A DNA stretch of 43,264 bases from [Limnothrix rosea] IAM M-220 (GTDB lineage: Bacteria; Cyanobacteriota; Cyanobacteriia; Cyanobacteriales; MRBY01), in assembly GCF_001904615.1 (NCBI RefSeq), contig NZ_MRBY01000036.1:1-43264 (forward strand), read 5' to 3'. Position numbers and translations under genes: made by a program. Under the pieces are notes generated by a model. That model did not search any database and was not told the DNA's origin. It worked only from the letters and a program-made list of their open reading frames with translations. This document shows, one piece after another, positions 17,878 to 42,980 of the stretch. The stretch's first letter is position 1; the number at the start of each line of letters is the position of its first letter.

Positions 17878-17900
17878 AATTTTTCTAAATTTAGTTTTTG

Positions 17901-17928: not shown

Positions 17929-17973
17929 AGAGAATGTGTTTCAGTCGTTATATTCAGCTAGCAAAATCAATAA

Positions 17974-18333
17974 TTATTCGGCAGCTTTAGGGGTGGGTTC
18001 GAGCAAACTCACCAAATGTCCTTGGGGACTGCGCACTGCTGCAACTTTCCCGAAAGAGGGTTCCCGCACTCGCCCTTCGAGGTTGCCACCAAGAGCTTCT
18101 AGATCGGCGATCGCCTGATGCACATCATCAACCGTAAAACTCAAGATGGGCGAACTACCCGTTTCTGGAGCTTCATTCGCACCATGAAAGGCGATCGTTG
18201 CCCCATCTGCCTCGATTTCTGCCCAGCCCGGCGTTTCGACCTTGACGGGTAAACCGAGACCTTCTTTGTAAAATTTCACAGCTCCGGCAACATCCTTAAC
18301 CATGAGCATAATGTGACGAAATTGAGTAGCCAT
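17974..18333 (-). CDS. VOC/glyoxalase family protein
   Basis: A 119-residue VOC protein with two beta-alpha-beta-beta units: FRHIMLMVKDVAGAVKFYKE at the start, LSFTVDDVHQAIADLEALG in the middle and VAAVRSPQGHLVSLLEP at the end. Candidate metal ligands are the N-terminal His, a central residue and the terminal Glu, as in glyoxalase I-like enzymes, but the activity is not predictable. It lies between the TonB-dependent receptor (61 bases upstream) and the binding-lipoprotein gene, on the same strand. It differs strongly from the other VOC gene at 16604-16930, so they are not a recent tandem duplication. Start ATG at 18333, with a tccta-type weak ribosome site. Confidence 0.87.
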   Translation of the reverse strand: MATQFRHIMLMVKDVAGAVKFYKEGLGLPVKVETPGWAEIEADGATIAFHGANEAPETGSSPILSFTVDDVHQAIADLEALGGNLEGRVREPSFGKVAAVRSPQGHLVSLLEPTPKAAE

Positions 18334-18394
18334 TAAAAATATCTCCTAAGCAAATCAATGGGTGAAAAAGTAAATAATTTAAAATCGCGAAATC

Positions 18395-21001: not shown

Positions 21002-21098
21002 GATTTTGTAAATGTGAATGTCGAATGAACTAGTCCTTTGCACCAGTCTTTCAAGCTCCTTTTAGGAGAGGTTCGGGGCGAGTTTTCGGCGGCTGATT

Positions 21099-21149
21099 GG
21101 CGCAACCGCAAGAATCCCTTCCGCCTTCGGCACCTTCCCCAAGGAAGGA
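21099..21149 (+). repeat. Dispersed repeat, second copy
   Basis: It contains ggcgcaacc (21099-21107), tccgccttcggcacc (21120-21134, inverted at 65-79) and cttccccaaggaagga (21134-21149), shared with 892-946. It lies between the receptor and ABC ATPase genes. Confidence 0.6.
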
Positions 21150-21231
21150 GATTGATTTAGCGTTTAGTGACTTTTTGCAAGAACTCTGTTGAATGGAAAA
21201 CGAAAATAAATCAGATTAGTTGGCGCTAATC

Positions 21232-22068
21232 CTAGGCGGGGGAGAGAATACAGACCTGCAAACCCACAGGGGTATTGATGGGCACTGCTTCTACACCGAA
21301 GCCGAGACGGAGATTTTCGGGCGTGACCACGGCGGCAGGTGCACCGAGGGCAAAAAGTTTTCCTTGCCGAATCATGGCGATGCGATCGCTATAACGGGTG
21401 GCAAGATTTAGCTCGTGGAGCACGGTAATGACAGTGAGGTTTTGGTCATGGTTTAACGTTTTGAGAAGTTCTAAAAGTTCTAGCTGATAGTGCACATCAA
21501 GGAATGTGGTCGGCTCGTCCAATACCAAAATCTTCGGATCTTGGGCGAGGGCTAAGGCGAGAAAAGCCCGTTGCCGTTCGCCGCCCGATAGCTCAGTGAT
21601 GGGGCGATCGCCGTAGTCAGACAAATTGGTTTGTTCTAATGCCCAGCTAATTTGTGCTTGATCGGCTGAGTTTAGCTCCCATTGCCACCAATCTTGGTGG
21701 GGCGATCGCCCTAAACCGACCAACTGACGCACGGTTAATCCCGTAGGAACTGCTGACTGTTGGGGCAAAATGGCGAGCTCTTTGGCAACTTCGCGTGGCG
21801 ATCGCCGGTGAATCGCTTTCCCATCAAGATGAATGACTCCTGATTGGGGTTGCAAAATACGGCACAACAAGCGCAATAATGTCGATTTGCCGGAACCATT
21901 TGCTCCCACTAAAGTGAGCCATTCCCCCTGCTGCACGGTGAGATTAATGTCCTGCACAATGGGCTTTTTGTTGTAGCCACCCGTGAGATTTCTCGCCGCG
22001 AGTATGGGACGTTGCTGGGGGTCGGACAAGGGGGCGATCGCCTCCGGTGAAGTTTTTGAAGTGCTCAT
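21232..22068 (-). CDS. Metallophore ABC transporter ATPase (FecE/FhuC type)
   Basis: A 278-residue ATP-binding subunit. Walker A is GANGSGKST at 55-63, the signature LSGGERQRA starts at 160, Walker B is ILVLDEPTTFLD with D184-E185, and a switch histidine occurs in TVLHELN. It energises the FecCD permease, whose stop codon overlaps this ATG in the arrangement ATGA (22065-22068), a sign of coupled translation. I use this ATG rather than the much longer open frame upstream, which only reads through the permease gene in another phase. The substrate is an iron chelate or B12, decided by receptor and binding protein. Confidence 0.95.
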   Translation of the reverse strand: MSTSKTSPEAIAPLSDPQQRPILAARNLTGGYNKKPIVQDINLTVQQGEWLTLVGANGSGKSTLLRLLCRILQPQSGVIHLDGKAIHRRSPREVAKELAILPQQSAVPTGLTVRQLVGLGRSPHQDWWQWELNSADQAQISWALEQTNLSDYGDRPITELSGGERQRAFLALALAQDPKILVLDEPTTFLDVHYQLELLELLKTLNHDQNLTVITVLHELNLATRYSDRIAMIRQGKLFALGAPAAVVTPENLRLGFGVEAVPINTPVGLQVCILSPA

Positions 22069-23087
22069 AGACGACCTCCCAAACCCCGACGATAAAGCAA
22101 AAAGATAAACAAAGGCGAGCCGAGTAAAGCCGTCACCGCCCCGACAGGCAACTCCACCGTGCCAGACCGCGACAGCAAATCCGCCAACACCAACATCCAA
22201 GCCCCCGCCAGGGTCGATAGGGGCAACACCCAACGATAATCCGAGCCGACCAACAACCGAATGCCGTGGGGAACCACTAATCCGACGAAACCGATTAGCC
22301 CCGCAATACTGACCGCACTAGCCGCCAGCAAACTGGCCGTCATGCCGATAATGATGCGGGAGCGGGTCAGGGAAATCCCTAAACCGACTGCCATATCATC
22401 ACCGAGATTGAGCAAATTTAAAGGGCGACCTAACAAGCAACCCACCAGCAGCGCAACTCCGACATAGGGGGCAACCATCTGAATATCGCTCCAGCCGCGA
22501 CCATTTAAACTGCCGACAAGCCAATTTAAAGCAGCCTGAATGCGCCCATCATCCGCCATGAGTAATAAGGTGGTTTGAATCGCGCCAAACAGCGAACTCA
22601 CCGCAACACCCGCTAAGACCAGACGATCTACGGCTAAGCTGCCGCCGACATAACCCAAGCAGTAGACCACCACCGCTGTCATTAGAGCGCCCAGCCATGC
22701 TCCCAGCGGGATCCAAGCGGCAAAAACATTGAGGGTAATAAAGGCGATCGCCACCAAACCCGCCCCAGCCGAAATGCCGAGAATAAACGGATCAGCGAGA
22801 CCATTACGCAGAAGCCCCTGAAGCAAAGCCCCCGATAGACCCAGCGCCGCACCGACAACTAAGGCAACGACAATGCGCGGCAACCGTAAATCCCAAATAA
22901 TCGTTTGGTATAGGGGATCCCCCTGATGTTGCAAAGCCTGCCAGAGCTGCCCAGTACTGAGTGGAACAGCCCCTTGGCATAAAGCCAATATGCTAGAGAA
23001 AAAGACCAAACCGAGCATCAAACACAACACCGTAACACTACGATTTTGCGAAAAACGCTGGGAAAAGCCCCGAAGACTAATCACCAT
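22065..23087 (-). CDS. FecCD/BtuC-family metallophore permease
   Basis: A 340-residue inner-membrane permease with about ten transmembrane helices. Family features include LPRIVVALVVGAALGLSGALLQ, NGLADPFILGISAGAGL, GLIGFVGLVVPHGIRLLVGSDYRW (the conserved ATPase-coupling loop) and the terminal GAVTALLGSPLFIFLLYRR. It would form a homodimer, since only one permease gene is present. It takes substrate from the lipoprotein at 16975-17877 and partners with the ATPase whose ATG overlaps its TGA. It is the first gene after a 348-base leader that contains a TATCGA-N8-TCGATA inverted repeat. Substrate as for the ATPase. Confidence 0.95.
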   Translation of the reverse strand: MVISLRGFSQRFSQNRSVTVLCLMLGLVFFSSILALCQGAVPLSTGQLWQALQHQGDPLYQTIIWDLRLPRIVVALVVGAALGLSGALLQGLLRNGLADPFILGISAGAGLVAIAFITLNVFAAWIPLGAWLGALMTAVVVYCLGYVGGSLAVDRLVLAGVAVSSLFGAIQTTLLLMADDGRIQAALNWLVGSLNGRGWSDIQMVAPYVGVALLVGCLLGRPLNLLNLGDDMAVGLGISLTRSRIIIGMTASLLAASAVSIAGLIGFVGLVVPHGIRLLVGSDYRWVLPLSTLAGAWMLVLADLLSRSGTVELPVGAVTALLGSPLFIFLLYRRGLGGRL

Positions 23088-23435
23088 AGGAATAAAAAAT
23101 AGCTATAAAAAAAGAAATAAATGTCTCGATAATTTTTATGGCCATCGCTATGTCTGAAATCCAAGGGCGATCGCCTCGAAAAACAATTTAATTTGCACCG
23201 ACCTCTGGCGAATCATCAAAAAAAATTGCGAGGGATTGTCAAGATTCAAAATCGCTACGTAACATAAAAACTATCGATGTGAATGTCGATATAGGAGGGC
23301 AAGTTGGCGCTTGTCCTTTTTCTTTGCCAATGTTCTTGACCAAGGAATGGCAGTATTGGCAGCAAAAAAAATGATAAAAACTAGAATTTTACGAACTGGT
23401 AGGATCGCCCCGGGCAAAATAGGTTTTTAACATGA
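23088..23435. other. Intergenic leader of the permease operon, 348 bases
   Basis: It lies between the tonB stop and the permease start, both minus strand. It holds one GCGATCGC, the inverted repeat at 23272-23291 and AT-rich runs. I looked for cobalamin-riboswitch boxes on the minus strand and saw none, nor an intrinsic terminator for tonB with a clear T-run. Confidence 0.5.
23272..23291. promoter_or_regulatory. Candidate operator TATCGA-N8-TCGATA
   Basis: Perfect 6-base inverted arms flank tgtgaatg, 185 bases upstream of the permease ATG. The central 13-mer atgtgaatgtcga (23277-23289) occurs again at 21012-21024, directly before the TonB-receptor ATG. Sharing by two uptake genes suggests a common regulator, for example an AraC-type siderophore regulator or Fur, but neither consensus is matched. 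Confidence 0.4.
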
Positions 23436-24830
23436 TTAATTCTCCGGTGATGTAGAAACAGGTGCTGGTGCAGCTGCTGGTGCTGGCGCTGGCGCAGGTG
23501 TAGGGGCAGCCACAGGGGCAGGTTTTGGCGCTGGCGCAGGCGTGGGGGCAGCCACAGGGGCGGGTTTTGGCGCTGGTGCAGGCGTGGGGGCAGCCACAGG
23601 TGACGGGGTTGGTGCTGTGACTTGAGGTGCTGGAGTTGGCATGGGCGCTGGCGCTGGTGCTGTTGCCGGTATGGGTTGTGTGGCTGGGGCTACGACATTC
23701 TGAGGGGGAGTTTCCGGTGGCTTGGCTGGCTGGGATGGTGGTGTCGATGACGGCGATCGCCCAGAAATCTCAGGCGTTGATGGGGGAGCAGCAGTCGTTG
23801 CCCCAGTCGTATTTATGCTCGGCGGCTCAGTAACAACGGGTTTTGCAACGGGGGCCGGCTTGGGCGCGACTGGCGGATTATTTTGCTGTTGTTGTCGGCG
23901 AATTTCATTTTGCCGCTGAAATTTTGAACCTTGCTCTTCATAGGTCACCTGCACATTGCGCCGCACACCATTATCCGGCACAGTATCTGGAGCAAAACGC
24001 CATTGGCTCAACGTTTTTAAGGTTTGTCGATCTACCGCTGGATCACCGCTAGACTGGCGCAGCCGCACTTCCACCGTGCCGTCAGGACGAATGTTCATAT
24101 CCACTTTTGCAGCGGTTTCTGTGCCTTGGTAATCAGGTTTTGGACAGCTCAGGCAGGTCAATTCCGGAGCTTTTTTCGGATTCGGCTTCGCTGCTGGTGC
24201 AGTTGTTGTTGAAGTATTGCCGGGTTTGGTTTCCCCCTCGATACCACTGCCAATGCCATCGGTTGTGCCGCTCGGATCGCCGTCGGTTTGATCATTTCCG
24301 GAGGTTGCTTGACCGAAGCCCATACCGTCATCTTCACCGGCTTGACCCATTACACCAAAGGCCATTTGCCCTGATGTTTGTCCGGCTTCTAAATCTCCAT
24401 TTTCATCGCCAGTTGTTGTGGCAGCGGCGGGATCAACTGCTTCGTCATTATCGAAGTCAGACGCTTTTGATTGCGGCGTTGGGGCATATTTAGGTGTGAG
24501 ATTTTTTTCTGGTATCGCGGCGATCGCCGTGGTTTGGGGGATGACATCGGACGGGGAATTTTGGACAACCGCTTGGGATTCTGGCTCGAAACGATCTTCC
24601 TCTGGCGCAATTTCTTCCTCTGGTACATCGGTAATGACAAACTCCAACTCTTCTATTTCTGAAGTTTTTGGAGTCCTGTCAACGGTGAGTATATTGCGGA
24701 AAAACGAGACGGGCGAACTCATCACCCAACCATGCAACACAGTGGAGGCGATCGCACTATTAATCAGTAAAATTTTGAGCAGCTTAATATCCCGTTGTCG
24801 CTGCTGTTCGAGGAGATCGGATGTGTTCAT
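23436..24830 (-). CDS. tonB: TonB-family energy transducer with C-terminal Pro/Ala tail
   Basis: TonB couples the ExbB-ExbD proton motor to outer-membrane receptors. The 464-residue protein has one N-terminal anchor helix (about 15-38), an acidic, Gly/Asp/Ser-rich linker, and a TonB C-terminal-type domain at about 222-305 with a CLSC motif, VDMNIRPDGTVEVRLRQSSG and the family TLSQWRFAP. After it, unusually, comes a further 160 residues rich in Pro, Ala and Lys, including the 14-residue repeat PTPAPAPKPAPVAA. In enterobacterial TonB the proline-rich spacer precedes the C-terminal domain; here it follows. I chose ATG 24830; another ATG 21 bases upstream is possible. It lies 57 bases after exbD, same strand. 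Confidence 0.85.
   Translation of the reverse strand: MNTSDLLEQQRQRDIKLLKILLINSAIASTVLHGWVMSSPVSFFRNILTVDRTPKTSEIEELEFVITDVPEEEIAPEEDRFEPESQAVVQNSPSDVIPQTTAIAAIPEKNLTPKYAPTPQSKASDFDNDEAVDPAAATTTGDENGDLEAGQTSGQMAFGVMGQAGEDDGMGFGQATSGNDQTDGDPSGTTDGIGSGIEGETKPGNTSTTTAPAAKPNPKKAPELTCLSCPKPDYQGTETAAKVDMNIRPDGTVEVRLRQSSGDPAVDRQTLKTLSQWRFAPDTVPDNGVRRNVQVTYEEQGSKFQRQNEIRRQQQQNNPPVAPKPAPVAKPVVTEPPSINTTGATTAAPPSTPEISGRSPSSTPPSQPAKPPETPPQNVVAPATQPIPATAPAPAPMPTPAPQVTAPTPSPVAAPTPAPAPKPAPVAAPTPAPAPKPAPVAAPTPAPAPAPAAAPAPVSTSPEN
23503..23602. repeat. 42-bp tandem repeat inside tonB
   Basis: Two full 42-bp units (23503-23544 and 23545-23586, three visible differences) and a partial third encode PTPAPAPKPAPVAA repeats in the TonB tail. 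The period is a multiple of three, so copy-number change would keep the frame. Confidence 0.9.
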
Positions 24831-24887
24831 GGCTGCTGAATAGATACTCAAAAATAGTTGACTTTAAACCGAAAAACGAGACATGAC

Positions 24888-25295
24888 CTACTGGCGCTTA
24901 GTGGCGATCGCCAACCTTGCCCCTTCCACCTGACGCACTTGGTCGATGATGGCAATCACTTTGTCATGGGTCACCTGTCCATCAGCATTAAGCACCACAA
25001 CCAAATTGGGATGCACTTCAGCAAGGGCAACAATTTCATCCTGAAACCCATCCATCGCCACTAATTCTTTGTTGAGATACACCTGACCCGCCGCATCCAG
25101 CGTGACCGTCGCCTTTACAGACTCCTGGGGTTGGGACGTTTGCGCCTTAGGAAGATTGACACTCAATGCCTCAAATCTGCCCAAAAATAGCGTTGACATA
25201 ATAAAAAAAGTCAAAATCGCAAAAATAATATCGATCATCGGCACAATATTAATTTGGGGAGGCAAATCCGGCTCATTAATGGTGTAACGTCGCAT
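24888..25295 (-). CDS. exbD: ExbD/TolR-family proton channel subunit
   Basis: A 135-residue biopolymer transporter. One membrane helix (about 15-37) contains the essential aspartate in INIVPMIDIIFAILTFFIM; a periplasmic domain follows, with the family pattern VTLDAAGQVYLN and VVVLNADGQVTHDKVIAIID. With ExbB it forms the proton-driven motor for TonB. I chose the ATG at 25295, preceded by ggggg, which overlaps the end of exbB by 20 bases. An ATG at 25325 would add ten residues and overlap by 50 bases but lacks a well-spaced ribosome site. Order exbB-exbD-tonB indicates a single operon. Confidence 0.92.
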   Translation of the reverse strand: MRRYTINEPDLPPQINIVPMIDIIFAILTFFIMSTLFLGRFEALSVNLPKAQTSQPQESVKATVTLDAAGQVYLNKELVAMDGFQDEIVALAEVHPNLVVVLNADGQVTHDKVIAIIDQVRQVEGARLAIATKRQ

Positions 25296-25959
25296 AGTCT
25301 GCCCCCACTTGATCTGGCTCGACATCCCTTAATGTGCGGCGATGATAACGGCGATGGACTAGCTCCAACTCCGCTGTGTATTCCTGAAAGAGAGCAATCT
25401 GCCGCACATAAAACCCCCGACAAATATTCGCAAAAAATAAAGTAAATACAGCCACAACCAACCCAAAGGCCGTCGAAGTTAACGCCTCACTGATACCCGA
25501 TGTCACCCCTGCACTTTCAGCACCGCCAATGCTGCCGAGATCAATGGAGCCAAAGGATTGAATCAAACCCAAGACGGTTCCCAATAGACCCAATAGCGGC
25601 GCTAGGGCAATAATCGTATCGAAAATATTACTAAATCTTTTAATGACGGGGATTTCTGCTTGAATTGCACCACTAATGGCTAATTCCAACTCATCGGGTT
25701 CCGCATCATCTAGGGCGATCGCCGCCAAAAAAATGCGCGCTAAGGGCAGATGAAGATAACGCTTGAGTCGCTGTTTTGCTAACCCCGGATCATGGCGATA
25801 ATCCCTTAAAACATCCTTCGCGACCTTCGTTTGCCGTTTATTAACGCGATACCAAAAAATCATGCGCTCGATCACCAGGGCGATCGCCACTACCGAAAAA
25901 ACCAATAGCGGCACAGCCACTATTCCCGCCGTTGCCACAAGTTCACCAAGCCTTTGCAT
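25276..25959 (-). CDS. exbB: ExbB/TolQ/MotA-family proton channel subunit
   Basis: A 227-residue inner-membrane protein with three helices (about 10-30, 110-135, 150-180). Family hallmarks are LVIERMIFWYRVNK after the first helix, IALAPLLGLLGTVLGLIQSF in the second and ISEALTSTAFGLVVAVFTLFFAN in the third. It forms the pentameric stator holding ExbD. First gene of exbB-exbD-tonB; the 3' end overlaps exbD. I prefer the ATG at 25959, which gives MQRLGELVATAG; a GTG at 25983 is the alternative. A Fur-box-like sequence lies 38-56 bases upstream. Confidence 0.94.
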   Translation of the reverse strand: MQRLGELVATAGIVAVPLLVFSVVAIALVIERMIFWYRVNKRQTKVAKDVLRDYRHDPGLAKQRLKRYLHLPLARIFLAAIALDDAEPDELELAISGAIQAEIPVIKRFSNIFDTIIALAPLLGLLGTVLGLIQSFGSIDLGSIGGAESAGVTSGISEALTSTAFGLVVAVFTLFFANICRGFYVRQIALFQEYTAELELVHRRYHRRTLRDVEPDQVGADYATLHH

Positions 25960-25996
25960 AATACAGACCCCTAGGGCAGACACCCTATACGACTTT

Positions 25997-27215: not shown

Positions 27216-27629
27216 TTAACCCGCGCCCGTATTGGGCGGTGTTTGCCCATCCATGTCGAGGGGACATACGCAGGGCTTTTGGTCGAGCCATTGGGTTCCC
27301 AGTTCGTGCATTGCCATCAGAGCCGGACGAAACTCTAAACCTTTAGGCGTGAGGGAATATTCAACCCGTGGCGGAATTTCAGGAAACACGACCCGTTTCA
27401 CTAAACCATGGGCTTCGAGAGCCCGCAGTCGAACGGTCAAGGTTTTGGTGCTAATGCCGGGGAGCGCCTTAAGGAATTCGTTGGTACGGCGTGGGCCTTT
27501 AAATAATTCCCGTAGGACTAAAATTGACCATTTATTGCCGAGTAAATCCACAACAAATTGGATAGGACAGCGATAGGACGGATCAAAACAAACTTCGTTA
27601 TCAGTCATAAAAAATAGCTTTTCCCCCAT
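27216..27629 (-). CDS. HxlR/MarR-like regulator with four cysteines (ChlR-like)
   Basis: A 137-residue winged-helix protein of the HxlR type: PIQFVVDLLGNKWSILVLREL near 22-42, the recognition region TNEFLKALPGISTKTLTVRLRALEAHG and the wing VEYSLTPKGLEFRPAL. Two cysteines sit at each end of the fold: C14 and C21 (VCFDPSYRCP), and C120 and C122 (CVCPLD), enough to ligate an Fe-S cluster or form disulfides. It is divergent from acsF. In Synechocystis and Synechococcus 7002 an oxygen-sensitive 4Fe-4S MarR-type activator, ChlR, controls the acsF-II/ho2/hemN genes; this is a strong candidate for the same role, but orthology is my inference. A second ATG at 27608 would remove seven residues. Confidence 0.85.
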   Translation of the reverse strand: MGEKLFFMTDNEVCFDPSYRCPIQFVVDLLGNKWSILVLRELFKGPRRTNEFLKALPGISTKTLTVRLRALEAHGLVKRVVFPEIPPRVEYSLTPKGLEFRPALMAMHELGTQWLDQKPCVCPLDMDGQTPPNTGAG

Positions 27630-27665
27630 TATTTTTAAACCTTTAGCATTTCTTTATAGCAAGCT

Positions 27666-27677
27666 AGACCCTAGTCT
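27666..27677. promoter_or_regulatory. Candidate operator between regulator and acsF
   Basis: agac-ccta-gtct is a small inverted repeat in the divergent intergenic region, close to a TATAAA that could be the regulator's own -10 box on the minus strand. Location fits an autoregulatory site; the motif is short and unverified. Confidence 0.25.
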
Positions 27678-27808
27678 GCGCCCTATTTTTTCCTTTGCGG
27701 TAACTATGGGGCGGCTCTAGAAACCATCTTGTCAGTCCCGTGGATATTGGGAATGATGGGCTTTACGAAATGCAATTTTTTCATACTTTTTTACGGGCTT
27801 TTATCGAT

Positions 27809-28885
27809 ATGGTTACAGCATTTTCTCCCTCGGATACGCCGATGTTACGGCCGGGTATTAAAGCGCCTGTCCAAGAAACGCTCCTAACGCCTCGTTTCTA
27901 CACGACGGATTTTGAGGCGATCGCCAATATGGTATTGGATCTGCAGGATAACGAAATTGCTGCGGCTTTAGATGAGCTGCGTGCAGATTATAATCGCCAT
28001 CATTTTGTGCGGGATGAGAATTTTGATGGCTCCATTGAGCACCTTGACGACAAAACGCGTGCTGCTTTTATTGATTTTTTAGAGCGGTCTTGCACCTCAG
28101 AATTTTCCGGCTTTTTATTGTTTAAAGAACTATCCCGTAAATTAAAAGGTCGGAGTCCAGTGTTAGCCGAAGCCTTTGGCTTACTAGCTCGTGACGAAGC
28201 CCGCCACGCCGGATTTATTAATAAAGCCATGGTGGATTTTGGGTTGTCCCTTGATTTGGGTTATCTCACTAAAAAACGTACCTATACTTTCTTTCCGCCG
28301 GAGTGGGTGATTTATTCCGTTTATCTCTCAGAAAAAATCGGCTATTGGCGCTACATTCTCGTTTTTCGTCACCTCGAAAAGCACCCTGAACACAATCTTT
28401 ATCCTTTGTTCAATTACTTTGAAAATTGGTGTCAAGACGAAAATCGCCATGGTGACTTTTTTAAGGCGTTGCTGCGATCGCAGCCGAAAATGTGGGACAC
28501 CTGGCAAGGGCGGCTATGGGGACGTTTTTTCCTGCTGACCGTTTTTGCAACCCATACGATGACGGTGTTTGAGCGGGCTGATTTTTATGAAGCGATTGGT
28601 CTGGATGCCCAGCAATACAACATTGACGTGATTCGCAATACCAATGAAACCTCTGCGCGAGCTTTTGCTGAAATTATGGATACTGACAACCCAAAATTCT
28701 TCCCCCTCCTCGAACAGTGCTCGGAAGCTAATGAAAAAATTGCTGAGATCATGATGGGCGATCGCCCGCCGCTGATGAAATTCATCCTAAAAATCCCATC
28801 GATTGTGACCATTATTGTTTGCTTATTGCGCCTCTATTTCTTGAAGCCGATTGATGCGGAAGCGACCCGTGGCGAAGTCCATTAA
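27809..28885 (+). CDS. acsF: Mg-protoporphyrin IX monomethyl ester oxidative cyclase, low-oxygen type
   Basis: AcsF (ChlA) is the di-iron subunit that forms the fifth ring of chlorophyll using O2. The 358-residue protein has the canonical start MLRPGIKAPVQETLLTPRFYT, a ferritin-like bundle with E98 and E107, DEARH (E130, H133) and a second CQDENRHGDFF motif. Being next to ho2 and hemN identifies it as the second, microaerobically induced copy (ChlA-II/AcsF-II); a normal-oxygen copy should exist elsewhere. I chose ATG 27809 because it matches the family length; a GTG at 27740 would add 23 residues with no better ribosome site. A long gap of 180 bases to the divergent regulator holds the promoter. 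Confidence 0.93.
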   Translation: MVTAFSPSDTPMLRPGIKAPVQETLLTPRFYTTDFEAIANMVLDLQDNEIAAALDELRADYNRHHFVRDENFDGSIEHLDDKTRAAFIDFLERSCTSEFSGFLLFKELSRKLKGRSPVLAEAFGLLARDEARHAGFINKAMVDFGLSLDLGYLTKKRTYTFFPPEWVIYSVYLSEKIGYWRYILVFRHLEKHPEHNLYPLFNYFENWCQDENRHGDFFKALLRSQPKMWDTWQGRLWGRFFLLTVFATHTMTVFERADFYEAIGLDAQQYNIDVIRNTNETSARAFAEIMDTDNPKFFPLLEQCSEANEKIAEIMMGDRPPLMKFILKIPSIVTIIVCLLRLYFLKPIDAEATRGEVH

Positions 28886-28957
28886 CGTCGGGTCATAGGA
28901 CTTTTTTTTGCGGTTAATTCTCTGTTGAATACTTTATTGAGCTAGGACTTTATAAAA

Positions 28958-29710
28958 ATGAACACTTTATCCCAAGAACTGCGCGAAGGAACCAAGCAAT
29001 CTCACACCCTTGCCGAAAATACAGCCTATATGAAATGTTTTTTAAAAGGCATTGTTGAGCGTGTGCCATTTCGTAAACTATTGGCAAATCTTTATTTTAT
29101 TTACGGCACGTTAGAGGATGCTTTATTAACGTATCAAGCTGATCCGGTACTGGGAAAAATTTATTGTCCTGAGTTGAATCGCACTGCAAAAATTGCTGCT
29201 GATTTAGAGTTTTTCTATGGTAAAAATTGGGATGAAAAGATTAAACCCACCCGCAGTGCTCTGACCTATGTTTTACGGTTGCAAGAGCTTGCCACAAATG
29301 ATCCTATTTTGCTCATTGCCCATGCTTATACCCGCTATCTGGGGGATCTCTCTGGTGGACAAGCGCTTAAATCGATTGTGCGTGGTGCTTTGAGATTGCC
29401 TGAGGATTTGGGTACTGCCATGTTCACTTTTGATAGTTTGCCGACACCGGGCGATCGCCGCCAATTTAAAACCAATTACCGTGAAACCTTAGATTCTTTG
29501 CCCTTAGATGCTGCCACCATTGAGCGTATCGTTGCCGAAGCCAACCATGCCTTTGCCCTCAACCGCGCGGTGATGCATGACCTAGAGCCAGAGGTGAAAG
29601 CGGCCATTGGGGAGCATACCTTTGATCTATTGACTCGCCAAGATCGTCCCGGCAGTACCGAAGCCCGCTGTCCCCATGCCCAAACGGTTGCCCTCGCTAC
29701 TGCGGAATAA
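28958..29710 (+). CDS. ho2: Heme oxygenase (HO2 type)
   Basis: A 250-residue biliverdin-forming heme oxygenase. The proximal heme ligand is H16 in TKQSHTLAENT; the distal helix glycine motif is YLGDLSGGQALKSI at about 128-141. It opens heme to biliverdin IX-alpha, the precursor of phycocyanobilin, consuming O2 and reduced ferredoxin. Its place between acsF and hemN marks it as the low-oxygen isozyme. It starts 72 bases after acsF, in the same direction, probably cotranscribed. No membrane anchor, as expected for cyanobacterial enzymes. Confidence 0.95.
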   Translation: MNTLSQELREGTKQSHTLAENTAYMKCFLKGIVERVPFRKLLANLYFIYGTLEDALLTYQADPVLGKIYCPELNRTAKIAADLEFFYGKNWDEKIKPTRSALTYVLRLQELATNDPILLIAHAYTRYLGDLSGGQALKSIVRGALRLPEDLGTAMFTFDSLPTPGDRRQFKTNYRETLDSLPLDAATIERIVAEANHAFALNRAVMHDLEPEVKAAIGEHTFDLLTRQDRPGSTEARCPHAQTVALATAE

Positions 29711-29758
29711 TCCCTAAAACATTCTAAAAAATTTCTTGTAAATTGTCCTTTTTGGAGT

Positions 29759-29779
29759 GGAGGCTCCTAGGTGGCCTCC
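29759..29779 (+). promoter_or_regulatory. Hairpin in the ho2-hemN gap
   Basis: ggaggc (29759-29764) pairs with gcctcc (29774-29779) 14 bases before the hemN ATG. The left arm is an anti-Shine-Dalgarno match, so it could mask ribosome entry, or it may mark an mRNA processing site. Confidence 0.35.
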
Positions 29780-29792
29780 GCCCTGTTTTGCC

Positions 29793-31196
29793 ATGAAACA
29801 TTTATCTCAATCGGTCAAGTTTGATCGGGATTTAATCCAAAAATATAACCAAGCTGTACCACGCTATACAAGTTATCCGCCGGCGACTGAGCTGACTGCT
29901 GATTTTGATCTTGATGCTTTTCGGGCGGCGATCGCCATCGGTAACCACAAACAAACGCCCCTATCGCTGTATTGCCACATTCCCTTTTGCGAAACACCCT
30001 GTTATTTCTGCGGTTGCAATACCATCATTACCCAGAATAAAAGTTTTGTTCCCCGCTATTTAGAGGCCCTAACCCGCAATATTGAGCAAATCGCAGCACT
30101 GGTACATCCTGATCGCCACGTCAAACAATTCCATTGGGGAGGCGGCACACCAAATTATCTAAATTTAGAGCAAGTTGAATATCTTTGGAATACCCTAAAT
30201 CAACATTTTAAGCTGGCGGATAATGCTGAGGTTTCCATTGAAGTAAATCCCTGTTATGTAGATCGGGAATATATTTTATTTCTGAGAAAATTAGGCTTTA
30301 ATCGCATTAGCTTTGGTATTCAGGATTTTAATCCGAAAGTTCAAGCAGCCATTAACCGTATTCAACCGGAAAAAATGCTTTTTGACGTGATGGGTTGGAT
30401 TCGCGAAGCGGGTTTTGAAAGTGTAAATGTGGACTTGATTTACGGTTTACCTTTCCAAACTTTGGAGACATTTAAAGAAACGATTCAAAAAACAATTGAA
30501 CTCGATCCAGATCGCGTTGCTGTTTTCAATTTTGCCTATGTGCCTTGGATTAAACCTGTGCAAAAACAGATGCCCCAAGCGGCCATGCCCAGCACTGCGG
30601 AAAAACTCGATATCTTCAAAATGACCATCGAGCAATTGACCCAGAATGGCTATGGGTTTATCGGCATGGATCACTTTGCAAAACCGGATGACGAATTGGC
30701 GATCGCCCAACAAGCAGGGACATTACACCGTAATTTTCAGGGCTATACAACCCAACCAGAATCAGATTTGCTCAGTTTTGGTATGACCTCCATCAGTATG
30801 GTGCAGGACGTTTATCTACAAAATCACAAGCGTCTCAAGGATTTTTATCAGGCAATAGATGCCGACCAATTACCCATTGCCAAAGGCTTTCAACTCAGCC
30901 GAGATGATCTGATTCGCCGGACAGTAATTATGGAATTAATGTGTGAGTTTCAACTATCGGCATCGGATTTAGAGGAAAAATACCATTTGGGTTTTGACCT
31001 TGATTTTAATGATTATTTTGCTGATGTTTTACCCATTCTTGATAGTCTTGAAGCTGATGGTTTGATTTGTCGCTGGGGTGATGGGATTGAGGTGACTCCC
31101 CGTGGACGTTTGTTAATTCGTAATATTGCGGCGGCCTTTGATCCCTATCTCCAAGGCAAAGGCGATCGCCAACAAACCTTTTCGAAAGCAATCTAA
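29793..31196 (+). CDS. hemN: Oxygen-independent coproporphyrinogen III oxidase
   Basis: HemN is a radical-SAM enzyme converting coproporphyrinogen III to protoporphyrinogen IX without O2. The 467-residue protein has the cluster motif C66-x3-C70-x2-C73, with the extra C75, in CHIPFCETPCYFCGC, preceded by Y60; GGGTPNYL binds SAM; VDLIYGLPFQT and YGFIGMDHFAKPDDEL are further HemN signatures that separate it from HemW. It supplies heme and chlorophyll when oxygen is too low for HemF. I chose ATG 29793; a GTG at 29757 would add 12 residues, translated across a hairpin. Third gene of the acsF-ho2-hemN unit. Confidence 0.95.
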   Translation: MKHLSQSVKFDRDLIQKYNQAVPRYTSYPPATELTADFDLDAFRAAIAIGNHKQTPLSLYCHIPFCETPCYFCGCNTIITQNKSFVPRYLEALTRNIEQIAALVHPDRHVKQFHWGGGTPNYLNLEQVEYLWNTLNQHFKLADNAEVSIEVNPCYVDREYILFLRKLGFNRISFGIQDFNPKVQAAINRIQPEKMLFDVMGWIREAGFESVNVDLIYGLPFQTLETFKETIQKTIELDPDRVAVFNFAYVPWIKPVQKQMPQAAMPSTAEKLDIFKMTIEQLTQNGYGFIGMDHFAKPDDELAIAQQAGTLHRNFQGYTTQPESDLLSFGMTSISMVQDVYLQNHKRLKDFYQAIDADQLPIAKGFQLSRDDLIRRTVIMELMCEFQLSASDLEEKYHLGFDLDFNDYFADVLPILDSLEADGLICRWGDGIEVTPRGRLLIRNIAAAFDPYLQGKGDRQQTFSKAI

Positions 31197-31277
31197 AATA
31201 GCCCCATCGATACCTAGGGAATTACTGATTTCTTACTAATTCCTTGCTAATTTTTTGATGATAAAATTTGTAATTTA

Positions 31278-32108
31278 ATGACCAATATTTCACCTCAAAT
31301 CACCACAAAAGCCCGATTAGATTGGGTCTCCGCATTATTCTTTGCCGTAGTCCATGGCATTGCCTTATTAGCCCCATGGTTTTTTTCTTGGTCTGGCCTT
31401 GGTGTCGCCATTTTTCTACATTGGTTATTTGGCAGTATTGGCATTTGCCTCGGCTACCATCGTCTTCTTAGTCACCGCAGTTTACAAGTGCCCAAATGGC
31501 TTGAATATATTATTGCTTTTATTGGCACTTTAGCCTTACAAGGAGGGCCTATTTTCTGGGTTGCGGGACATCGTTTGCACCATGCCCATACAGAAGATGA
31601 AACCCAAGATCCCTATTCGGCAAAACGAGGTTTTTGGTGGAGCCATATGCTTTGGATGCTATACCCAAATCCTGATTTCTTTGAGTACGAACGTTACAAA
31701 AAATACGCTCCAGATCTCGTGCGTCAAGGCTATTATCGCTGGCTAAATCGCAATTTTCTCTTACTACAAATTCCCCTAGGATTATTGCTCTATTTTCTCG
31801 GCGGTTGGTCTTGGGTAATCTATGGTATTTTCGTGCGAGCCGTACTGCTTTGGCATAGTACATGGCTGATTAATTCGGCTACCCATGTGTGGGGCGATCG
31901 CCGTTTTGAGGTCGCCGACAATTCCCGTAACCTCTGGTGGGCAGCTATTTTCACCTATGGCGAAGGTTGGCACAATAATCACCACGCCCATCCCCATGTC
32001 GCCAAAGCAGGCTGGCGTTGGTACGAAATCGACATGACATGGTGGTCCATTTGGTTATTGCGTCGCCTCGGTCTTGCGAAAAAAGTCGTGATGCCGCCGA
32101 CGAGCTAA
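31278..32108 (+). CDS. Acyl-lipid delta-9-type fatty acid desaturase
   Basis: A 276-residue integral membrane di-iron desaturase. Three histidine boxes are complete: H61-x4-H66 (HRLLSH), H98-x2-HH (HRLHHAHTE) and H232-x2-HH (HNNHHAHPH). About four hydrophobic segments flank them. Cyanobacterial enzymes of this type introduce the first double bond at delta-9 of glycerolipid-bound acyl chains. A desaturase (desF) also accompanies the low-oxygen tetrapyrrole genes in Synechococcus 7002, so this is probably the equivalent; its regioselectivity is inferred. It starts 81 bases after hemN, and a strong terminator follows at 32164. Confidence 0.92.
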   Translation: MTNISPQITTKARLDWVSALFFAVVHGIALLAPWFFSWSGLGVAIFLHWLFGSIGICLGYHRLLSHRSLQVPKWLEYIIAFIGTLALQGGPIFWVAGHRLHHAHTEDETQDPYSAKRGFWWSHMLWMLYPNPDFFEYERYKKYAPDLVRQGYYRWLNRNFLLLQIPLGLLLYFLGGWSWVIYGIFVRAVLLWHSTWLINSATHVWGDRRFEVADNSRNLWWAAIFTYGEGWHNNHHAHPHVAKAGWRWYEIDMTWWSIWLLRRLGLAKKVVMPPTS

Positions 32109-32163
32109 CCCTTTACCAATTTTAATTACAAGTTTTCCTCTCAACTCTCATAGACAACTCCAC

Positions 32164-32201
32164 TCTCACCTAGCTTTTTAAGTTTGGGTGAGATTTTTTT
32201 T
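32164..32201 (+). terminator. Intrinsic terminator after the desaturase gene
   Basis: tctcacc (32164-32170) pairs with ggtgaga (32187-32193), followed by eight T. It ends the acsF-ho2-hemN-desaturase transcript and separates it from psbA. Confidence 0.8.
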
Positions 32202-32630
32202 AGGCGATCGCCAGATCAACCCATCCAGCCTGATTCCACGGGGCGATCGCCCCGCCAAATATCTTGATAAAAACCATCGTCAACCCTGAAGAAATAGAGA
32301 TTTTAACCTCCCAAATATCAAGGCAATTAAGTCGTTTTTTATTGCCTCTAGATATGCTGAGAAAACCAACTTTTTTGGACAAGAAAAAAATTTAACGAAA
32401 AAAAATGTTCGATGTAAAAAAACACAAATAAAAACTTTCCTCTAGTGCCAGTAAGTTACCCCAAGTAAAATAATTAAAACCTCAAATAATTCATTAAAAA
32501 AAGACAAAATAATCACTAAAAAGTCCCAGAAAAGTTGTCAATTATAGAAAATATTGTTTATAGTAAAAAAGTGATTAAGCTTACATGAAAACAGCTTGAT
32601 CCCAGTACTTGAAACTGGACAATAGTAATT
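32202..32630. other. AT-rich upstream region of the D1' psbA
   Basis: About 430 bases without a gene. Two GCGATCGC sites lie near 32206 and 32246; the rest is very A-rich. The only feature I can support is the promoter at 32535-32564. Confidence 0.5.
32535..32564 (+). promoter_or_regulatory. Sigma70-type promoter of the D1' psbA
   Basis: TTGTCA (32535-32540), an 18-base spacer and TATAGT (32559-32564). The start point would be near 32571, leaving a leader of about 60 bases before the ATG at 32631. Both hexamers are close to consensus. Confidence 0.6.
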
Positions 32631-33713
32631 ATGACTACAGTTCTAAATTCAGGAACAAATATCTCTCTTTGGGAGAAATTTTGCCGTTGGGTAACTAGTA
32701 CCAAAAATCGCTTTTACCTTGGCTGGTTCGGCGTACTAATGATTCCAACTCTATTGACCGCAACGACTTGTTTTATCCTTGCATTTATTGCGGCTCCCCC
32801 CGTTGATATTGACGGAATTCGAGAGCCAGTCTCCGGTTCTCTGCTCTATGGCAACAACATCATTTCAGCCTCAGTTGTACCTAGCTCCAATGCCATTGGC
32901 CTACATTTTTATCCTATCTGGGATGCCACATCTCTAGCCGAATGGCTCTATAATGGCGGCCCTTACCAACTGATTATTTTCCACTTCATTATCGGCATTT
33001 TTTGCTACATGGGTCGTGAATGGGAATTGTCCTATCGCCTTGGTATGCGCCCTTGGATTGCTGTGGCTTTTTCGGCTCCTGTCGCTGCTGCAACCGCGGT
33101 TTTAATGGTGTATTCCATTGGTCAAGGTTCTTTCTCTGACGGTATGCCTTTAGGCATTTCGGGAACCTTTAATTTCATGCTTGTATTGCAGGCAGAACAT
33201 AATGTTCTAATGCATCCTTTTCATATGATTGGCGTTATTGGCGTATTTGGTGGAGCGCTATTCTCGGCAATGCATGGTTCCCTTGTTACGTCATCTTTGA
33301 TCCGTGAAACGACAGAGATTGAATCTCAAAATTATGGCTATAAGTTTGGTCAAGAAGAAGAAACTTATAATATTGTTGCTGCCCATGGTTATTTTGGTCG
33401 ATTGATCTTCCAATATGCCTCATTTAATAATAGTCGTGCTTTACACTTTTTTCTTGCGGCTTGGCCAGTGATTGGTATTTGGTTTGCGTCTTTAGCGGTG
33501 GCTTGTTTTGCCTTTAATCTAAATGGTTTTAACTTCAATCAATCGCTGCTAGATTCCCAAGGAAAAGTCATTCATACTTGGGCTGATATTATTAACCGAG
33601 CGAATCTTGGCATTGAAAGTATGCATGAACGAAATGTGCATAATTTCCCTCTTGATTTAGCGGCTGGTGAATCAATTCCGGTTGCTTTCCAAGCACCGAG
33701 TATTAGCGGCTAA
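32631..33713 (+). CDS. psbA: Photosystem II D1 protein, D1' (low-oxygen) isoform
   Basis: A 360-residue D1. It carries the three substitutions that define D1' isoforms: A80 instead of Gly ([11 protein letters not shown]), L158 instead of Phe, and A286 instead of Thr (GIWFASLAV). It also has E130 (MGREWEL), the high-light-type residue beside pheophytin, and A144 instead of Cys. Key ligands are intact: Y161, D170, E189, H198, H215, H272, H332, E333, D342 and A344, so it should support oxygen evolution. D1' genes are induced by low oxygen in other cyanobacteria, matching the neighbouring acsF-ho2-hemN cluster. Codons are less optimised (AAT, TTT, TTA common) than in the psbA at 41898, as expected for conditional expression. 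Confidence 0.97.
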
Positions 33714-33752
33714 TATCTATCTATTTTTCTCTCGTTGACAATCTCACAATTG

Positions 33753-33785
33753 AAAATCCCTATGGCACGGTAGGGATTTTTTTTT
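33753..33785 (+). terminator. Intrinsic terminator after the D1' psbA
   Basis: A perfect 10-base stem, aaaatcccta (33753-33762) with tagggatttt (33771-33780), loop tggcacgg, ending in a run of nine T. The cytochrome gene downstream must therefore have its own promoter or rely on read-through. Confidence 0.9.
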
Positions 33786-33848
33786 CCTTTGATCGCTGTG
33801 ATTTGGTGACGCAGAGATGTGCTGCAAAATAATTAGGAGAATCTAAAT

Positions 33849-34433
33849 ATGTGTTATGGGAAATTATGGAGGGGGTTTTGTGCTGGTTTTGTGGCGATCG
33901 CCCTGATTTTGATCAAACCTGATATCGTTTTAGCGGCGGTTAATCCACCAGAGTTTGGCTATGCGGTGCAGGCGATTGAGGAGTTGGATGCCATGCGTTC
34001 GGGTTTGGCTAGTACCCTTGAACCGGGTAGCGACATTACGCCAGAAACGATGCGAGAGGTCTGTAAACCTGTGGGAATGCAGGCAAAAAAACTCGGTGTG
34101 GATAATGGTTGGCAAGTAAAGCAAGTTGCTAAAAAATATCGTAATTTAGACCATGCTCCTCAAACTTTGCGAGAGACGATGGCGATCGCCAAATTTGAAC
34201 AAGACCCCGAACTTTTAAGTTTCAGCCAAACCGCTCAGGATGGCTTACATTACTACCGACGCATTAATGTTGAAAGTAGCTGTCTAGCTTGCCACGGAGC
34301 TAAAAATGATCGTCCTAATTTTATCAAAGCAAAATATCTCGACGATCTTGCCTATGACTTTAAAGTTGGGGATTTGCGTGGTATGTATTCCGTTTTAATG
34401 CCCACCTTAGAAAGTATCAGTAGTGAGTTATAA
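33849..34433 (+). CDS. DUF3365, Tll0287-like c-type cytochrome
   Basis: A 194-residue exported c-type cytochrome. A signal peptide (hydrophobic 10-29, ending IVLAAV) puts it in the lumen or periplasm. One heme site, C145-L-A-C148-H149 (SSCLACHGAK), and a conserved cysteine C72 in MREVCKPVGMQ. Thermosynechococcus Tll0287, a DUF3365 protein of similar size, has unusual His/Cys axial heme ligation; C72 is the equivalent candidate here. The domain is also used as a sensor. Location just after the D1' psbA suggests a photosystem II-related or redox-sensing role in low oxygen, which remains inference. The ATG at 33849 follows taggaga, a good ribosome site. Confidence 0.88.
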   Translation: MCYGKLWRGFCAGFVAIALILIKPDIVLAAVNPPEFGYAVQAIEELDAMRSGLASTLEPGSDITPETMREVCKPVGMQAKKLGVDNGWQVKQVAKKYRNLDHAPQTLRETMAIAKFEQDPELLSFSQTAQDGLHYYRRINVESSCLACHGAKNDRPNFIKAKYLDDLAYDFKVGDLRGMYSVLMPTLESISSEL

Positions 34434-34436
34434 ACA

Positions 34437-34931
34437 ATGAAATGCTCGTTATTTTTTAAAAGAGTTTTATTGAATTTAAGTCTAATTATTTTACTTTTTT
34501 GTAGTAGTTTAGTTTGGGCTGCACCGAGCTATGGAAGTATTCGGCAACAGGAAGAAAAGCCGGGGCAAATGTTGTACCAATCGCGTCAATCTATTCGGGA
34601 TGATCAGGGGCAAACTTGGCAGGTAATTTTGTTTAAGCGCGTCAAAGATGGTGTGGTGGAGCAGGTGGATTTACGGCTATCTGGCTATCCTGAGCAGGCG
34701 GTATTTCGACATCCTGCGGAGTTGAAAATCATGGAGGGCGATCGCCTCCTTACAGCACCAGATCAGTTTGCCGCAGAGGCTCCGGCAAAGAATATTGGAC
34801 AATTTGACCTGAGCGAAATTTTGCCACTTTTACCAACAAGCGACTCGGTTCAGCTAAACTTACCCCTCGACAATCCTGTCACTATCGATATTCCCGTTGC
34901 GGTTCTACTGGAATGGCAGTTGATCATGTAA
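34437..34931 (+). CDS. Exported DUF3122-like cyanobacterial protein
   Basis: A 164-residue protein with a clear signal peptide (KRVLLNLSLIILLFCSSLVWA, cleaved near residue 29). The mature part is a small predicted beta domain: EEKPGQMLYQSRQSIRDDQG, then WQVILFKR, and a C-terminal DNPVTIDIPVAVLLEWQ. It resembles the cyanobacteria-specific DUF3122 family, whose function I do not know. The ATG lies three bases after the cytochrome stop codon, so the two form an operon and probably work in the same lumenal or periplasmic compartment. No cysteines remain after processing, so it does not bind heme covalently. Confidence 0.78.
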   Translation: MKCSLFFKRVLLNLSLIILLFCSSLVWAAPSYGSIRQQEEKPGQMLYQSRQSIRDDQGQTWQVILFKRVKDGVVEQVDLRLSGYPEQAVFRHPAELKIMEGDRLLTAPDQFAAEAPAKNIGQFDLSEILPLLPTSDSVQLNLPLDNPVTIDIPVAVLLEWQLIM

Positions 34932-34991
34932 TGACAAGTTGCGTATCTAAATGTTGTCACGCAGCAAATTTAGATCACACATATCCAAAGA

Positions 34992-35034
34992 AAAACGCCT
35001 AGGTGTCTGTCCTTGTTTCGACCCTAAGCGTTTT
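34992..35034. terminator. Bidirectional intrinsic terminator
   Basis: aaaacgcctagg (34992-35003) pairs with cctaagcgtttt (35023-35034) with one mismatch; T or A runs flank both sides, so it can end the cytochrome operon (+) and mutT (-). A second hairpin, gtgggaa/ttcccac (35069-35093), sits nearer mutT. Confidence 0.75.
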
Positions 35035-35110
35035 CCGGTGATTCCTCACACCAGATATCCATTTTGACGTGGGAATTTAGCCGGAGTTCCCACAGGTTTT
35101 AGAAAAAAAA

Positions 35111-41897: not shown

Positions 41898-42980
41898 ATG
41901 ACTACTACTCTAAATAAGCGCGGTAATGCGTCTTTATGGGAGAAGTTTTGTCAATGGATCACTAGCACTGACAACCGCATTTATGTGGGTTGGTTTGGTG
42001 TCTTAATGATTCCTTGCCTTCTCTCCGCAACTATCTGCTTCATCATTGCATTTATCGCAGCTCCAGCTGTTGATATTGACGGCATCCGCGAGCCTGTGGC
42101 AGGTTCTTTGCTTTCTGGCAACAACATCATCTCCGGTGCAGTTGTGCCTTCTTCCAATGCCATTGGTCTTCACTTTTACCCTATCTGGGAAGCAGCATCC
42201 CTAGATGAGTGGTTGTACAACGGTGGTCCTTACCAACTCGTTATTTTCCACTTCCTCATCGGTGTCTATTGCTGGATGGGTCGTCAGTGGGAATTGTCTT
42301 TCCGTTTAGGCATGCGCCCTTGGATCTGTGTGGCCTACAGTGCCCCTGTCATTGCTGCAACTTCCGTATTTTTGATCTACCCCATCGGTCAGGGTTCTTT
42401 CTCTGACGGTATGCCCTTGGGTATCTCTGGTACGTTCAACTTCATGATCGTATTCCAAGCTGAGCACAACATCTTGATGCACCCCTTCCACATGTTGGGA
42501 GTAGCTGGTGTATTTGGTGGTTCTTTGTTCTCCGCAATGCACGGTTCTCTAGTAACATCTTCTCTCGTTCGTGAAACCACTGAGACTGAGTCTCAGAACT
42601 ATGGTTACAAGTTCGGTCAAGAAGAAGAGACTTACAACATCGTTGCAGCGCACGGCTACTTCGGTCGTTTGATCTTCCAATATGCATCTTTCAACAACAG
42701 CCGCTCCTTGCACTTCTTGCTCGGCGCATGGCCTGTCGTTGGTATTTGGTTTACAGCGCTTGGTATTTCCACCATGGCGTTCAACCTCAATGGTTTCAAC
42801 TTCAATCAATCTGTTTTGGATAGTCAAGGTCGTGTAATCAACACTTGGGCTGACATCCTAAACCGTGCAAACCTCGGTTTTGAAGTAATGCACGAGCGTA
42901 ACGCTCACAACTTCCCGCTTGATTTGGCTGCTGGTACTGAGGCTCCTGTGGCGCTTCAGGCTCCTGCCATCAACGGTTAA
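41898..42980 (+). CDS. psbA: Photosystem II D1 protein, standard (low-light D1:1) isoform
   Basis: A 360-residue D1 with Q130 (MGRQWEL), G80, F158, C144 and T286, i.e. the usual low-light form. All cofactor ligands are present: Y161, D170, E189, H198, H215, H272, H332, E333, D342, A344; the last 16 residues are the cleaved C-terminal extension. Codon choice is strongly biased to AAC, TTC, GGT, CGT and CTC, typical for one of the most expressed cyanobacterial proteins. It is about 9.3 kb downstream of the D1' gene in the same direction. A strong terminator follows. Confidence 0.98.

Follow-up and report, generated by a model that had tools for sequence, protein, structure and literature searches.

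Gene neighbourhoods of an exported Tll0287-DUF3122 pair encoded beside a ChlR-type operon and a D1' gene in [Limnothrix rosea] IAM M-220

Introduction

Which process does an exported heme protein serve when its gene lies directly behind that for D1', the low-oxygen D1 protein of photosystem II? The question is raised by a stretch of 43,264 nucleotides from [Limnothrix rosea] IAM M-220 (contig NZ_MRBY01000036.1; the whole stretch is called the window), in which a regulator gene and the genes acsF2, ho2, hemN and desF are followed by a psbA gene for D1' and by two genes for exported proteins, one resembling the c-type cytochrome Tll0287 and one of the DUF3122 family (together, the pair). A sequence-only reading had taken all of these for one contiguous module with D1' tightly added, and had proposed that the pair serves D1'-containing photosystem II or senses its redox state.

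The ChlR operon, D1', the association of Tll0287 with PsbA2-photosystem II and the location of psbA groups 2 and 3 near sqr are already known. Copurification of Tll0287 with PsbA2 (D1') photosystem II from Thermosynechococcus elongatus was published by Boussac 2013, as cited in PMC4582080, and the association is therefore not new; the same source calls the purpose of D1'-photosystem II 'still unclear'. PMC4500134 notes an inhibition of the donor side of photosystem II by sulfide and suggests D1' for sulfide-rich anoxia. Group 2 and 3 psbA genes occur near sqr, the gene for sulfide:quinone oxidoreductase (SQR; Grim and Dick 2016, PMC5061849). In a mat with little oxygen and intermittent sulfide, psbA transcripts were dominated by the microaerobic type, and SQR transcripts were present too (PMC8651085). 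SQR-dependent anoxygenic photosynthesis has been shown in Synechococcus PCC 7002 (PMC12466478).

Results

Neighbourhoods of tll0287

A wider low-oxygen or sulfide role of the pair fits the genomic evidence better than one dedicated to D1'-photosystem II, because linkage to SQR is commoner, six tll0287 genomes show no D1', tll0287 is distant from psbA2 in T. elongatus, and DUF3122 is also found elsewhere. Neighbourhoods were compared in a first set of 40 stretches of up to 20 kb, fetched round short-frame PF11845 matches, and a second set of 80 named loci from a contig scan, many of them cut by contig ends and some repeating first-set genomes (L153, L162 and L186 come from G052, G288 and G274, among others). 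Long PF11845 sensor fusions were left out by frame length, G145 and G021 hold fragments, G231 and G262 lie outside the fetched set, and L047-L051, which represent another PF11845 subfamily, were excluded from genome counts. SQR was identified from PDB matches (type I, 3sz0 and 3hyv; type II, the mitochondrial enzyme 6oi5).

For the first set, an SQR-family gene was found in 18 of 40 loci, DUF3122 in 15 by clustering of open reading frames (ORFs; 16 by tblastn), and psbA in 8, with a psbA fragment at the edge of a further locus (L039). For the named set, type I SQR was found within 3 kb in 36 of 80 loci and anywhere in 42, type II SQR anywhere in 5, DUF3122 anywhere in 59 and within 1 kb in 49, and psbA in 21 (19 at E <= 1e-20, the weak matches in L158 and L216 being missing at that cut-off), and 29 loci held neither SQR nor psbA. 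Other companions in this set were arsR-like genes (33), petC2-like Rieske genes (28), hemN (5), heme oxygenase (4), a desaturase (3) and acsF2 (2); chlR was present in none of the 80. Among the 29 named loci of at least 20 kb, SQR was present in 20, psbA in 13, either in 23 and DUF3122 in 24. Pairs less than 1 kb apart had DUF3122 downstream on the same strand in 56 of 58 cases, with a median gap of 15 bp (repeated genomes included). The tll0287-SQR neighbourhood was not found in print by a literature search covering few subscription papers.

In T. elongatus (L022, whose Tll0287 agrees with the chain of PDB 5b82 by eye), SQR, tll0287 and DUF3122 follow one another with 44 and 12 bp between genes, and psbA2 lies more than 0.9 Mb from tll0287, either way round. 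The proposed linkage of the pair to D1' recurs within the genus, where D1', tll0287 and DUF3122 adjoin (L013, L014), and as D1'-tll0287 adjacency in f25 genomes (L033, L035, L040, L044), but does not extend to T. elongatus.

The residues A80/L158/A286, which we take to be the mark of D1', are present in T. elongatus psbA2 and absent from its psbA1. This triad was found in all 8 psbA genes of the first set, the one in L027 being without Mn ligands, and in all 18 psbA genes of the named loci that were readable at the three sites, none of which is standard; eight of these have the full Mn-ligand set, one (L230) has one ligand changed, and nine lack the set (L159, L160, L183, L186, L191, L196, L198, L210 and L213). 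The tll0287 neighbourhood is common to D1' and ligand-less D1.

The juxtaposition in the window has parallels in composite loci elsewhere, and those named here all include SQR: psbA, petC2, SQR, arsR, tll0287, DUF3122, a second psbA (split in L191) and a desaturase gene in L191 and L213; SQR, arsR, tll0287, DUF3122, acsF2, heme oxygenase and hemN in L158; SQR, tll0287, heme oxygenase, hemN and DUF3122 in L183 and L204, and the same without DUF3122 in L179; and psbA, tll0287, type II SQR, acsF2 and hemN in L226. In f25 and related genomes (L033, L040, L226), the neighbours of D1'-tll0287 are a type II SQR gene and an additional Rieske gene of PetC type; hemN lies nearby, as does acsF in L040 and L226.

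Co-occurrence across genomes

For the D1' count, 31 genomes with stand-alone tll0287, minus the non-assessable G205, G110 and G379, were set against 31 control genomes, minus seven; partial psbA genes were involved in G048 and G314 (tll0287 side) and G060 (control), and psbA copies were read in part per genome, most unread ones sharing the bit score of a read copy from the same genome. The SQR count comprised 35 tll0287 genomes, since G000 (the window's genome), G004, G010 and G018 stand in this count and outside the D1' count. Type II SQR was sought in 16 tll0287-side genomes and the 31 controls, and the comparison over 386 genomes of the phylum is of type I.

D1' was found in 22 of 28 assessable tll0287 genomes and 5 of 24 assessable controls (p=6e-5, as a guide), still in 16 of 22 after exclusion of six genomes with adjacent D1' and tll0287 (p=9e-4), and, counted by genus, in 15 of 20 vs 4 of 20 (p=0.001). 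SQR of either type was found in 32 of 35 tll0287 genomes vs 7 of 31 controls (p=8e-9), or 23 of 24 vs 6 of 24 by genus, and type I SQR alone in 22 of 35 vs 13 of 351 other genomes. All six assessable tll0287 genomes without D1' have SQR, and the tll0287 genomes in which neither SQR type was found are the window's own, G125 and G379. Within the controls, SQR was present in 4 of 5 D1' genomes vs 2 of 19 without D1' (p=0.006). Given these counts and the SQR enrichment in D1' controls, D1', SQR and tll0287 are one co-occurring set, of which SQR is the closer companion of tll0287; the expectation that the pair tracks D1' is borne out for tll0287, which nevertheless tracks SQR more closely. Across the phylum, PF11845 occurs in 97 of 386 genomes, often as long sensor fusions, and DUF3122 in 157.

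Two blocks in the window

All genes named by the sequence-only reading (regulator, AcsF, HO-2-type heme oxygenase, HemN, desaturase, PsbA, Tll0287-like and DUF3122) were found present and intact at their coordinates (Table 1), and its placing of acsF-ho2-hemN-desaturase in a known low-oxygen operon agrees with the ChlR operon of Synechococcus PCC 7002. Its tight addition of D1' to a single module did not survive: desF and psbA are separated by 522 bp, with more than 400 bp from the desF hairpin to the psbA start, two terminator-like hairpins intervene, and the blocks are apart in two congeners (G052 and G077), where the acsF2 operon lies about 154 kb and about 470 kb from the D1'-tll0287-DUF3122 block. 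A single low-oxygen operon was rejected on these grounds. Because of these separate loci, the genus conserves two blocks, not one, and their contact is a feature of the window's genome. The predicted transcription layout is chlR / acsF2-ho2-hemN-desF / D1' psbA / tll0287-DUF3122, split by the hairpins; tll0287 and DUF3122 are spaced by 3 bp.

The regulator belongs to HxlR/MarR, has four cysteines and is encoded divergently from acsF2-ho2-hemN-desF; its counterparts in the two congeners, likewise divergent to acsF2, are 72% identical to it. For PCC 7002 the published order is chlR / acsFII-ho2-hemN-desF, with only the four operon genes given as ChlR targets; for Synechocystis 6803 a ChlR variant is described that binds the D1' promoter (PMC4500134). 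The [4Fe-4S] cluster of ChlR and its low-oxygen activation are published for PCC 7002 and PCC 6803 (PMC4500134, PMC13421787). With the box motif TTMCC-N3/4-GGWAA taken from PMC13421787, an exact ChlR box was found in one congener (L239) in the same gap upstream of acsF2, and the window holds 29 ChlR-like sites (at most one mismatch, spacings 3-5) vs a mean of 16 in shuffles. The sole ChlR-like site upstream of D1' (32456, one mismatch) was not above chance and was rejected as a ChlR box, and comparison of the acsF2 and psbA upstream regions gave no common 9-mer.

Judged from its residues, the psbA gene of the second block is of D1' type, and the call is sound: all seven Mn-ligand positions checked are intact, and the protein is 88% identical to the congener D1'. 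A second psbA in the window (41898-42980) is standard (G80, F158, T286).

The exported proteins

PDB 5b82 matches the Tll0287-like protein (E=2.7e-57), the CXXCH motif and the axial-position cysteine both being aligned, and Cys 72 is nearly invariant. It has PF11845, CXXCH and the axial cysteine and carries no signalling domain, which places it in the stand-alone Tll0287/sCache_heme type. A second PF11845 protein of the same genome is a long frame (G000:C36:25196-25690). Cys/His heme ligation and a low potential have been reported for Tll0287 of T. elongatus. Motomura 2017 reportedly gives Tll0287 a potential near -255 mV, to which the sulfide/sulfur couple is close, and is said to have discussed a role of Tll0287 in an H2S-oxidising system. 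Stand-alone Tll0287-type proteins are described as redox-like rather than gas sensors, with stable Cys/His ligation and neither O2 nor nitric oxide (NO) bound strongly (PMC12889525).

In the DUF3122 model (predicted local distance difference test score 92), a group of strands lies between an N-terminal and a C-terminal helix. A Foldseek search returned nothing at E <= 0.001, and the best VIA-align row, IalB-like 3dtd (Z 7.9, 121 residues aligned, root-mean-square deviation 3.6), was not clear of the next rows and no function was taken from it. In an alignment of 18 rows, no Cys or Met column reaches 12 rows and one His column reaches 15; a cofactor protein was rejected for want of a conserved Cys or Met column. 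The linked DUF3122 copies do not form one clade, the tree giving 12 label changes, at least 8 of them forced, and the association was therefore gained or lost many times. No paper on DUF3122 was found by the literature search described above.

Among the matches listed, five genomes (G112, G385, G166, G278, G274) have DUF3122 within 5 kb of type I SQR and no stand-alone tll0287 within that distance, and 22 genomes, which all belong to family f6, have DUF3122 within 5 kb of HoxH. The exported protein is there embedded in a hox bidirectional hydrogenase cluster between hoxU and hoxY, in L252 in the order hoxF, hoxU, DUF3122, hoxY, a CBS-like ORF (by eye) and hoxH (profile scan), and the same gene families are found in L247 and L248. 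PMC2674450 was considered as a published case and rejected, as its excerpt places hcp rather than DUF3122 in the hox operon of Lyngbya majuscula. Some other DUF3122 copies adjoin a rhodanese gene (L246, L256 and L258 by scan, L251 by family), the L256 copy also lies beside a metallo-beta-lactamase-fold gene of the persulfide dioxygenase/glyoxalase II kind, and a ribD-family gene follows DUF3122 in L253, L254, L259 and L260. The window's genome has a second DUF3122 (G000:C16:71485-71874, in a 271-residue ORF), not near tll0287 or SQR.

Features of the locus

Table 1. Features of the low-oxygen locus in window coordinates, with the corresponding congener loci.
Feature	Coordinates	Strand	Evidence
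chlR-like regulator, HxlR/MarR	27216..27629	-	PF01638, 109 bits; Cys 14, 21, 120, 122
ChlR-like box upstream of acsF2	27690..27703	+	one mismatch to TTMCC-N4-GGWAA; one-mismatch sites common, so weak
acsF2/chlAII, oxidative cyclase isoform	27740..28885	+	TIGR02029, 489 bits
ho2, HO-2-type heme oxygenase	28958..29710	+	PF01126
hemN, oxygen-independent coproporphyrinogen oxidase	29757..31196	+	TIGR00538, 717 bits
desF-like fatty acid desaturase	31278..32108	+	PF00487; same place in congeners' operons, 73-74%
terminator-like hairpin and T-run after desF	32164..32193	+	-14.3 kcal/mol, z -3.5
psbA for D1'	32631..33713	+	TIGR01151, 741 bits; A80, E130, L158, A286, Mn ligands intact
terminator-like hairpin and T-run between psbA and tll0287	33752..33781	+	-14.6 kcal/mol, z -3.3
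tll0287-like exported c-heme protein	33849..34433	+	PF11845, 101.6 bits; CXXCH 145-149, axial-position Cys 72
DUF3122 exported protein, predicted beta-sandwich	34437..34931	+	PF11320, 144.9 bits vs cut-off 25
Cyano-1 RNA (RF01701)	34987..35055	-	48.8 bits vs gathering score 41; fold z -5.3
congener chlR-acsF2-ho2-hemN-desF operon			L239, L240
congener D1'-tll0287-DUF3122 block			L013, L014

AcsF2 is 72 and 71% identical to the congeners' operon copies and 56% to the second AcsF of the same genome (G000:C45:3627); its true start may lie downstream of the annotated one, as the congener match starts at residue 24. The heme oxygenase is closest to Synechocystis HO-2 (PDB 1wov, E=5.7e-108, 363 bits, vs HO-1 1we1, 2.9e-69, 237 bits). 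The desF hairpin comes from fold scoring and is absent from the separate terminator list that has the psbA-tll0287 hairpin. The Cyano-1 RNA lies just behind DUF3122 on the opposite strand, with a convergent gene of the NUDIX family on its other side. Positions 16975-25983 (-), upstream of the low-oxygen genes, hold a TonB-dependent receptor, a FecCD permease, a periplasmic binding protein and ExbB-, ExbD- and TonB-like ORFs (the last three assigned by eye), and look like an iron or heme uptake locus.

Discussion

The pair is tentatively read as an exported low-potential heme protein and its beta-sandwich partner serving low-oxygen and sulfidic photosynthesis, kept here with D1', at a probability of roughly 0.45. 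The first block, a ChlR-type operon, would keep pigment and lipid synthesis running at scarce oxygen; the second would comprise the D1' gene, apparently its own unit, and a two-gene exported unit of Tll0287, with a presumed Cys/His-ligated c-heme, and DUF3122, a predicted beta-sandwich with no evident cofactor site. The pair would belong to a sulfide/low-oxygen photosynthesis toolkit with the commonest core SQR-(arsR)-tll0287-DUF3122, which D1' or a Mn-ligand-less D1, petC2, ho2 and hemN would join in many genomes. In a reduced cell exposed to sulfide, D1' would take the place of D1 in photosystem II. Tll0287, which DUF3122 would help to dock on membrane complexes, could exchange low-potential electrons with lumenal or periplasmic reduced sulfur; acting as a sink or safety valve, it would protect the donor side of photosystem II and pass electrons on. 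The closeness of the potential reported for Tll0287 to the sulfide/sulfur couple, together with the SQR linkage, suggests such a carrier or buffer of reduced-sulfur electrons facing the lumen or periplasm, for which DUF3122 would be a docking partner. The window's genome yielded no SQR, and the pair may therefore serve tolerance there rather than sulfide-driven photosynthesis. Gene content, order, co-occurrence and motif conservation are observed; lumenal location, sulfur electron exchange and DUF3122 docking are steps that we infer.

Several points weigh against this reading. The sole published physical association of Tll0287 is with photosystem II and not with SQR, and the link between the pair and sulfur is one of genomic association. 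The window's draft genome gave neither a type I nor a type II SQR, beside the pair or elsewhere, although this is weak evidence because the draft seems broken or collapsed at psbD, seen as two 26-residue ends (contigs C56 and C65), one at a contig start; the two congeners carry SQR on a small or secondary contig. DUF3122 is not confined to sulfide settings: 43 of its 150 listed places are near tll0287, type I SQR or HoxH, and 107 are near none. The controls were hand-picked from tll0287-free genomes, the genomes are related, and the p-values are guides only. The probability is set no higher because the window's genome lacks a detected SQR and DUF3122 has other homes.

That Tll0287 and DUF3122 are accessory proteins of D1'-photosystem II, serving or sensing that complex specifically, as the sequence-only reading had proposed, draws on the published copurification, on the adjacency with D1' in the genus and in f25 genomes and on the genome-wide co-occurrence of tll0287 with D1'. 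It is nonetheless considered unlikely: SQR linkage is about twice as common as psbA linkage, D1' was not seen in 6 of 28 assessable genomes with tll0287, DUF3122 is widespread without tll0287, and 9 of the 18 readable psbA neighbours lack the Mn ligands and are hence not D1'. In part the proposal is supported; the pair is not dedicated to D1'-photosystem II.

Shared induction only would mean that these genes, all switched on in anoxia, cluster because of regulation or transfer and have no biochemical step in common; DUF3122 would then be a protein of general use in the envelope or lumen of reduced cells. The exported DUF3122 within the operon of the cytoplasmic hox hydrogenase, the scatter of linked DUF3122 copies over the tree and the joining of desF, ho2, hemN and acsF2 to some tll0287 loci all agree with it, but the very constant spacing and direction of tll0287 and DUF3122 do not, and SQR accompanies tll0287 also where unlinked (13 of 36 places linked, yet SQR in 32 of 35 genomes), and we regard this explanation as distinctly unlikely. 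A sensor of NO or redox state, like the long sensor-fusion relatives, is highly improbable, since the window's protein carries no signalling domain and the stand-alone type binds neither gas strongly (PMC12889525), even with the family relation to sCache_heme sensor domains and the frequency of long PF11845 fusions in cyanobacteria, one of them in the window's genome (G000:C36).

A bolder form of the favoured sulfur reading, and an improbable one, is that Tll0287-DUF3122 would be an electron carrier so far missing in cyanobacteria, one that oxidises or buffers sulfur outside the cytoplasm, and perhaps the sulfide oxidase that has been postulated for Leptolyngbya hensonii (PMC5776472). It would couple reduced sulfur to D1'-photosystem II or to the cytochrome b6f pool, with DUF3122 a docking protein recruited at scarce oxygen by low-potential redox systems (SQR, Tll0287, hox hydrogenase). 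With the recurring SQR-tll0287-DUF3122 cluster and SQR in most tll0287 genomes, the question of what D1' is for points to sulfide and not to oxygen alone, and the cluster gives DUF3122 a first functional setting.

Comparison with known systems

The sqr loci described by Grim and Dick 2016 (PMC5061849) resemble the present locus in having psbA genes of groups 2 and 3 close to sqr and arsR, under low-oxygen, sulfidic conditions; the window differs in combining D1' with the pair and in the lack of a detected SQR, and tll0287 and DUF3122 are not mentioned in the excerpt of that paper. Compared with T. elongatus, the gene upstream of tll0287 is SQR there and D1' in the window, whose genome yielded no SQR, whereas in both genomes Tll0287 is a stand-alone exported c-heme protein with CXXCH and an axial-position cysteine (5b82), and DUF3122 follows. 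With the ChlR regulon of Synechococcus PCC 7002 (PMC4500134), the window shares the gene set, the gene order, the divergent regulator and the four regulator cysteines, and differs in that the operon is directly followed by the D1'-tll0287-DUF3122 block, which in two congeners lies elsewhere.

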